DNA from: Chrysomallon squamiferum
Lineage: Eukaryota > Mollusca > Gastropoda > Neomphalida > Peltospiridae
Length of the DNA stretch: 64,000 nt
Assembly: GCA_012295275.1 (NCBI GenBank)
Contig: CM022672.1
Coordinates: 28,162,472 to 28,226,471, forward strand
Reading direction: 5' to 3'
The notes below the pieces were generated by a model. That model had not been told where the DNA came from. It saw only the letters and a program-made list of their open reading frames with translations, and ran no database searches. Made by a program: the position numbers and the translations under genes. Within the stretch, counting starts at the first letter, position 1; each line of letters opens with the position of its first letter. Below are positions 38,601 to 41,600 of this stretch, piece by piece.

Positions 38601-41600
38601 TCGTGCTGTATTTAATAATAATGAGATGTTTGTGTTTTGTTATTTTTACAGCTGAGCAATGGTCTGTTCAGCTTGTCTGTTGGACTTGATGAGATATACA
38701 CATTCACTACATTGGCCAGTGGTAACAAGGGACTTTATCCAAATCCACCTCTACCAAAGCCTTTTCCAGATTTGTACTTTGATGATTTTGAAAGTGGGTT
38801 TGTTTTTAAATCAAATAGTTAATAAAATGGTATTATCAAATGATCAAAAATGATTAAATTTAAAAAACCAAATAAGTATGAAATAAATCTGTCTTGGAAC
38901 CATATTGTTGTTTTGTTGGTATAAATGGCTCTATTAAATTAAGCATTGTATACCAACATATGCTAATTTGAATAAATATCTGTTAAATTTAATTGTATTT
39001 AAAAACAAAACAAAAAAAAGTTCATTATTATTATTTATTTATTTATTTATTTATTTATTATTATTATTATTTGTTGTTGTCATTGTTGCCATTGTTTACA
39101 AATTAACAGATAAATATTTCAGAATTAAGTAACTAATGTAACAGATCTTTTTTTATTTACAAAAAGATTAATTGTATATTTAAATGCTGGGCTACCAGAA
39201 TGATTTATTACTGTGTCTACAGCATATCAAAATAACATGGAACCCAACAATCTAGCCCAGCAGATGGGTGTATTTGAGGTAATTGATGTAGGTGGCTCTC
39301 ACGGGAATGTTATGCGCCAGACATTACTTCATAAGCCCACTTCTTGGTGTAGTGCAGAAAAACTGAACATTTCTTTCACTATTATTGGGAACCATGCTTG
39401 GTAAGACTTCCAATGATAGTCTTTTGAACAGAGTCACAAAATCTCAAATGGCAAATTTCAGAGATATGATTGGCAAAATGATGAGTATTAATTGTTAGCA
39501 TGCAGATATGACTGACAAAACTACGGTATTAATTTTCAACATACTTAGGTGTGTTTCTTCCTATAGGAGGATACACAGAAAAGTTAATTTGTTCCAAAAA
39601 GAACAGAACATGAAGTGCAGGCCTGGTTTCCAGTTGTATGCTATTACTTGTCATCATTAATCAGTAATATTAAAATAATCATTTATTCAAATATTCTGAA
39701 CAGTAGATATGTTGATAACCATAACAAAATGTCACCCTCTTTAGAAGAATCTTTGTCATAAGAAAATTCCTTTTACTAATTTAGTCTGCTTCCAGATGAC
39801 ATATTATTGTGATTTTGGGGGAGGTTTTGTTCATTTTCTTCCATTCTCAGTCTGATTAAAAGCTCATTTTATTTCTATCTTTCCCAGATTGTTCAGAATT
39901 TCAAGAACCTTTCAATTTTGCCCAGCAAGTGGGCTGTTTTGAAATCAGAAAAACATCAGATCCCAGTCATTCTAAAGTGATGCGTCAGGTTATTCTCAAC
40001 CCACCCATTCCTTGGTGCATTATCAACCTAGATTTTCCTATTTCTGTTCTTGGAAGTTATAATTGGTGGGTTCTGTTTTGGTTCTGTTTGTTGCTGTATT
40101 TATTTTTTGTACACTGGTTTCATGTCACACTTTTTATTTTGTTGATCAATTAAAGGTATGTTTTTTTTGTTGTTGTTTTGTAGGGGTTTATCTAACATTT
40201 AATGATTTATCAAATATTTTGTATTATGGTTTGGTAAAAGAAAAATCTTCTAAAAAGTTTCTTATTAGTAGAGAAAATAGAACATTTTATGTTAACTTGT
40301 GATAAAGGTAACTTAAATTCCATTAATTTTTATTTTTATTTGTTAGAGAAAACATTTATCACAAATTTATTATCTACTCATTCTTTTTTTTATAAGTTTC
40401 TGACTTCAGTGATGAAAAACTAAGAGACAGCTTGTTAACAACAGTGATTTTTCAATCCAAAAATGCTTTAGAAAAGAAAATATTTCTCAGCCTTAGTTAG
40501 TCCATAGCCCAGTTTTTCAAGGATCTGGTGAATACAATAATAATTAAAAGTATTGTTCAACTGAAATATTAATGTTTTAAATCTTTAAAACAAATGTTCC
40601 TAGGTCTTGAGTGGGTTTCCTGCCAATCTGTGATGCTAGTGTTTGAAATGATTAACTCAGATAACAATTTTTCAAATTAAATAATGTCAAGTTGAGCATT
40701 TTACTTTAGAAATACTGAATTTTTTGTGGCTCTGTTCATTTTGTGTAAATTTATATATTTATAAGAACAGTGTTTTAACAACTAGCTTTTACATTGATTA
40801 TTGATTAAGTTACAAATATGTGTATGAATATAACAAAGCTGGTAGAAAATGTTCAAATTACATTTTTTATGTGAAAATAAAGTTTTAATTAGTATTGAGA
40901 AACATTTAATGGATAAATTCAATTTGTAATTTTTTGTTTTTTTATTTATGATTTAGGACTGATGTTTATGTTGAATCTGAAATGAGCCTTAACTCTGTGA
41001 ATGCTTCTAATGGTGTATTTATTGCTGCCAGAGTGGATAAAGGAGGGTGTCAAGCATTCACGGCCAAAGGAATTTTTTTTTTTTTATTTCCTAACAAAAA
41101 GTATTACATTCTGGCAAATGATTTGGGTAAGTTAATATCAACCCAGTGTATTGTTGTTTTTCTAAACCTTGTTCTTTTTTTGTTTGTTTTTTTTTGTTCA
41201 TTTTTTTTTTTTTTTTTTTTTGGTTTGTCTATTGTTTTTCTTTCTGTTGACATAGTAACAATAAAAGAAAAAATCTTAGCCATTCATATTCTCATGAACT
41301 TTTTAATTATTTCATGTTAAAGAAAGTTTAGGAACTGTTGAAAGTGAAATTATAAGTTGTCTTTTTTTCCAGATTTAATAATGACAGCAATTAAGAAAAT
41401 TTAATATTTATATTTGTATTTAACACAATTTTATTCAGTGTAAATTTGTTATTTCAGCACGGACTCAAGTTATTGTTGAGGGTATTATTCCACAGGTTAA
41501 TCCAGGGTGGAACAAAGTATCTCTTTTTGTTGAGGTTAGTTGTCTTACATAAGTAAGATCATAAAAGTACTTATGCAATTTTTGAGTGATAGGTGTCCTA

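Follow-up and report, generated by a model that had tools for sequence, protein, structure and literature searches.

A tandem pair of equal-length, probably mutually exclusive exons in a molluscan galactocerebrosidase gene

Can one galactocerebrosidase gene supply two enzymes by choosing between two versions of a single exon? The question is raised by a 64,000-nt stretch of the genome of the gastropod Chrysomallon squamiferum (contig CM022672.1, positions 28,162,472 to 28,226,471; hereafter "the window"). The window carries two genes for galactocerebrosidase (GALC, GH59), the enzyme lost in Krabbe disease: paralogue A, which runs on the reverse strand from about 14.5 to 2.6 kb, and, on the forward strand, gene B. 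The entire coding span of gene B was located at 26643..41873 (18 exons per spliced form; the TAG stop codon, ending at 41873, is included). An initial annotation, made from the sequence of the window, had proposed that exons 15a and 15b of this gene are alternatives of which exactly one must be chosen.

Exons 15a (39223..39400) and 15b (39888..40065) are both on the forward strand, are each 178 nt in length, and are separated by an intron of 487 nt (39401..39887). They are flanked by exon 14 (38652..38793; donor gtgggttt), which leaves phase 1, and exon 16 (40957..41126), both of which are common to the two forms. Both 15a and 15b are entered in phase 1 and left in phase 2, and GT-AG sites were found in both: the acceptors are ttactgtgtctacag/ and ttctatctttcccag/, and the donors are /gtaagact and /gtgggttc, respectively. 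The protein encoded by 15a (a-type) opens with TYQNNMEP and closes with HAW; that of 15b (b-type) opens with NCSEFQEP and closes with YNW. The coordinates, lengths, phases, and intact splice sites of the initial annotation were thus confirmed exactly on the sequence. Gene B spliced with 15a alone or with 15b alone yielded an open frame of 686 residues in each case. Including both exons placed a TGA exactly on the 15a/15b junction (TG+A); skipping both led to a stop at the tenth codon, the junction codon being counted as the first. The expectation that both or neither would break the frame was therefore borne out.

The two exons encode diverged versions of the same stretch of the lectin domain, as had been claimed. 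The protein identity between them is 37%, the ungapped nucleotide identity is 78/178, and 15a retains the Trp, the Cys, and the final Trp. Both isoforms match the Pfam GALC lectin domain, with scores of 168.7 and 182.1 bits against a cut-off of 27. The pair is unlikely to have arisen by chance, because few intron windows are open and no AG-178-GT stretch is: in the 17 gene B introns other than intron 1, 59 of 4625 overlapping 178-nt windows were open in the tested frame, as were 0 of 9 AG-178 nt-GT stretches. Exons 15a and 15b are a real homologous pair in a gastropod GALC gene. Paralogue A has a single exon 15 of the a-type (about 4929..5109, reverse strand; edges taken from the sequence), and a tblastn search with both gene B isoforms gave no second copy there, in agreement with the initial annotation.

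Gene B is assigned to the GH59 galactocerebrosidases by its domains and aligned catalytic residues. PF02057, PF17387, and PF21708 (the GH59 barrel, the central domain, and the C-terminal lectin domain) scored above cut-off in both isoforms, and the motifs WNE and SED fall opposite E182 and E258 of the mouse enzyme, its established catalytic acid/base and nucleophile, respectively. The three domains and the aligned catalytic residues are shared with vertebrate GALC (mouse, 3ZR5; its complex with saposin A, GALC-SapA, 5NXB). Among the matches listed, the best-scoring protein was Gigantopelta aegis GALC-like isoform X2, which is 75% identical overall to the window protein; over the part corresponding to 15b, the identity is also 75%.

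Conservation was studied using the best 120 of 4091 protein matches, drawn from the 7994 candidates sharing the most words. The protein database was clustered at 90% identity; isoform partners may therefore be hidden, and a missing partner in a species carries no meaning. Protein searches with the 60-residue segments by themselves were nearly empty (15a scored no protein, from one candidate, and 15b scored the Gigantopelta protein only), probably because too few exact words were in common, and the full-protein match list was therefore used for all conservation work. Both segment types were present in gastropods, bivalves, and a chiton. In Pomacea canaliculata, the NCBI-annotated isoforms X1 (P0011, a-like) and X2 (P0005, b-like) are identical over 400 residues before and 110 residues after the segment, which itself is 44% identical; the two records derive from same-length contigs, and predicted models of these isoforms match the mouse GALC fold over 628 and 629 residues. 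The initial annotation knew of no mutually exclusive exons in the GALC of other animals. For molluscs this appears wrong: Pomacea X1/X2 have the look of a pair of this kind, and the two types are present in three molluscan groups. The mutual exclusion that it proposed is supported by the gene anatomy and by the fact that each annotated isoform seen in relatives has exactly one version.

All 376 pairs of alignment rows with at least 72% upstream identity were ranked by discordance between flanks and segment. The window and Pomacea came first, with oysters (P0024/P0031; flanks 98 and 97% identical, segment 43%) and mussels (P0016/P0033; flanks 97 and 96%, segment 44%) among the next, followed by abalone, more oyster pairs, unionids, and scallops. 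P0024 is probably a transcript, because its 2239-base contig is too short for such an intron-bearing gene. Contigs under 5 kb carry both types (11 a, 9 b, and 16 outgroup rows). The two types might instead be separate paralogous genes, with the apparent isoforms being annotation chimeras: multiple GALC genes are present in several molluscs, b and a rows of Bulinus (P0029, P0068) have consecutive gene names, and the types of the chiton Liolophura are found on contigs of different length. However, just 487 nt separate the window exons, which have exons 14 and 16 as common neighbours, and the Pomacea pair has identical flanks on same-length contigs; this alternative is regarded as highly improbable.

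A segment tree was calculated from 124 rows (the 120 matches, window 15a, 15b, and paralogue A, and mouse). It featured one deep split by type (support 96/97), with 64 a rows and 60 b rows. Apart from one long-branched nemertean (Lineus, P0110), the a rows with names are all molluscan: gastropods, bivalves, cephalopods, and one chiton. On the b side, molluscs (gastropods, bivalves, and a chiton) are joined by the brachiopod Lingula (P0040), annelids, deuterostomes, and mouse. Rows without a name are present on either side. The mouse segment differs from the gene B pair in grouping with the b side. The segment offers just 61 usable columns, and the inner branching is poorly resolved as a result. 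For the flank tree, 34 rows were hand-picked from 122 groups, mainly by lineage, and the identical Pomacea pair was left free. This tree required 10 type changes, and a clade by type was rejected (approximately unbiased (AU) test, p 3.1e-7). In a 37-row segment tree, the type split had support of 96/89, and keeping both types of one lineage together was rejected for Pomacea (0.0011), scallops (0.016), abalone (0.030), and oysters (0.038). These sequences are most simply read as a single duplication that preceded the separation of chitons, bivalves, and gastropods. Tandem duplication early in molluscs is the most likely source of the a exon; the b-type is the one that clusters with other animals. 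The trees suggest that the exon copies are older than the species carrying them, with a possible exchange between splicing and gene duplication in Bulinus. In Bulinus truncatus, the b-type P0029 and a-type P0068 lie on same-length contigs, and in some pulmonate snails the exon types may have been sorted into tandem genes.

The end branch of window 15a is long (0.62), and this exon is at most 56% identical to any row among the matches listed. These values could indicate that one exon is a decaying relic and that the gene effectively yields one isoform in C. squamiferum. Yet 15a is open, has good splice sites, and keeps the residues named above, and the long branch may reflect sampling, as the retrieved set contained no a-type exon of gene B from the closest relative. 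A relic is thus considered very unlikely.

The segment aligns to mouse GALC 481-540, in the lectin domain (mouse numbering is the chain index + 12, hand-counted on the alignment, and agrees with E182, E258, R380, and S146 of the papers). The initial annotation was correct in placing the exchanged piece outside the catalytic barrel, but the active site is not far away. W524 is described in PMC4445328 as a lectin-domain residue that helps to build the binding pocket, and PMC5764952 describes saposin as presenting lipid to GALC in mouse, with R520 and T523 of GALC hydrogen-bonded to Q24 of saposin A. The segment contains the W524 pocket wall and the positions of R520 and T523; partner recognition, which had been offered as a possible difference between the forms, was a good guess. 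Position 524 is W in 62/64 a, 27/31 b, and 28/28 outgroup rows. In these counts, the outgroup is Lingula together with 27 rows from a single b-side branch that are unnamed or not molluscan, and b stands for the other 31 b-side rows, some of them unnamed. The four b exceptions (P0044, P0090, P0104, and P0107) have Ser; those with names, three in all, belong to sea slugs. At position 520, 15a has K and 15b has P; the a rows as a whole chiefly have T or Q there. Position 531 is P throughout the b rows (31/31), and 61/64 a rows have S, T, or A at it. Fourteen columns discriminate best between a and b: mouse 495, 503, 505-507, 520, 522, 523, 526, 527, and 529-531, plus one column with no mouse counterpart.

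It is conceivable, although considerably less probable than a role in recognition, that this is a conserved and mutually exclusive pair whose swap nevertheless serves abundance, stability, or trafficking, for example through an extra N-glycan. An N-x-S/T site at 529-531 is present in 32/64 a rows (window 15a included) and in 0/31 b rows. The site is missing, however, from half of the a rows, including Pomacea X1 and paralogue A; 12/28 outgroup rows have it, and several of the best separating columns are at the pocket lip. This position-specific count supersedes a segment-wide one (44/63 a, 12/31 b, 16/28 other), because the latter also counted sites near the segment end.

The anatomy of the pair, the conservation of segment types, their type-wise phylogeny, and their position relative to the known structure are observed; the explanation that we favor for them, with good confidence, is a true mutually exclusive pair that arose by an early-molluscan tandem duplication of a b-like exon and has been kept since, the choice most likely tuning saposin-lipid or galactolipid recognition. 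An ancestral b-like exon would have been duplicated in tandem early in molluscan history, with both copies retained. Because 178 cannot be divided by three, full translation is open only to mRNAs with a single copy; those with both or neither carry early stops and would presumably be destroyed by a nonsense-mediated route. The choice between 15a and 15b would be regulated. Both proteins would still have the catalytic barrel, the Trp of the pocket, and the lectin fold but would differ in the strip around mouse 520-531, and the exon chosen would set which saposin-lipid complex or galactolipid is handled, with the chemistry constant. Any difference between the isoforms should act through the exchanged strip, because the remainder of the enzyme is common. 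That the strip alters lipid or saposin recognition is somewhat favored on account of its position, with glycosylation or stability being the main alternative.

Several observations weigh against this explanation. Only Pomacea gave two apparent isoforms of one gene; the other pairs are different records or different species, and gene structure was seen in the window alone. In the chiton, the a row (P0071) and the b rows (P0034 and P0093) are on contigs of different length and may not belong to one gene. In the 37-row tree, keeping the types of a lineage together was not rejected for the window (0.097; 0.101 with Gigantopelta), mussels (0.18), or unionids (0.13). R520 itself varies (T, Q, E, R, K, and others in a; P in 17/31 b), and it is therefore position, rather than the residue, that argues for the saposin reading. 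Finally, RNA pairing between the introns was not above that of shuffled sequences (15 shuffles each).

In that comparison, the best intron duplexes were -24.2, -27.2, and -24.4, vs. shuffle means of -24.7, -29.4, and -23.6; as all were within the shuffled range, intron pairing was rejected as the exclusion device. Splice-site incompatibility was likewise rejected, all sites being GT-AG and the flanks ordinary. A spacing of 487 nt exceeds the reach of simple steric exclusion of neighbouring exons, and that device was set aside.

Mutually exclusive exons are a known kind of arrangement, and an enzyme with a substrate-changing pair is known from PMC7434440: exons 6a and 6e of coq-2 (134 nt each), found in helminths, annelids, and molluscs, which alter near-substrate sites. 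Like 15a/15b, these are mutually exclusive exons of equal length in an enzyme gene. Unlike GALC, a lysosomal glycosidase in which a pocket-rim and partner-site exchange is predicted to have an effect, coq-2 encodes a polyprenyltransferase whose core is exchanged with a demonstrated effect on the product. Exon 10 of oyster alternative oxidase, described in PMC5589949, is also a tandem duplicated exon in a molluscan enzyme, with one copy more conserved; those exons, however, are terminal, are used by alternative 3' splicing, and are reported from two oysters but not from four other molluscs, whereas the GALC exons are internal and their types are found across molluscan classes. The human tandem duplicated exon substitutions of PMC9741552 similarly yield proteins that are the same except for one homologous region, and the events are reported to be mostly ancient, but they concern other genes and another lineage, and no GALC case was found in literature searches.

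In the open-licence PMC literature, no paper was found that links galactocerebrosidase or galactosylceramidase, or GALC and saposin, with mutually exclusive exons, although a description elsewhere is possible. The available portions of PMC5685644 and PMC8195618 name galactocerebrosidase in expression tables or short text and do not mention a GALC exon switch. In the former, a galactocerebrosidase-like transcript is reported to be up-regulated in Biomphalaria pfeifferi infected with Schistosoma mansoni. Exon gain and loss in vertebrate GALC evolution is reported in PMC12008523, the available text of which had no match for "isoform", "mollus", "invertebrate", or "splic". Text searches gave no report of a second exon type in vertebrate GALC; vertebrate genomes were not searched for it.

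Other features of the window were noted. The first coding exon of gene B, 1b (26643..26771, forward strand), which encodes the signal peptide and the beginning of the mature enzyme, is one of two candidates; the other is at 26189-26314 on the same strand, and both encode a signal peptide and mature GALC start and are in phase 0 at their donors. Two first-exon motifs in a row were found only in the Pomacea models P0005 and P0011 among 122 rows, and a duplicated first exon may be common to Pomacea and gene B. The Gigantopelta N-terminus was not clearly nearer to either copy (23/42 and 25/43 identical). In a stretch of intron 1 of gene B (27240-29990), similar sequence in inverse orientation was seen by eye near both ends (about 27270-27600 and 29590-29960); this putative element is likely a DNA transposon. 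Between the two GALC genes lies a multi-exon gene (15542-21830, forward strand), presumably for a uroporphyrinogen-III synthase by resemblance, and the long open reading frames at 55333-61281 (reverse strand) are, we assume, polycystin-like.

Molluscs appear to vary the saposin/lipid surface of GALC while the rest of the enzyme is constant, a natural experiment with two proteins that differ by about 60 residues. We tentatively suggest, at somewhat less than even confidence, that a splicing switch kept since early molluscs swaps a saposin-docking, pocket-rim strip, such that one gene may provide two GALC enzymes for different galactolipid-saposin pairs in place of gene duplication. If true, this would be a further case of a deeply conserved splicing switch, here in a lysosomal hydrolase.
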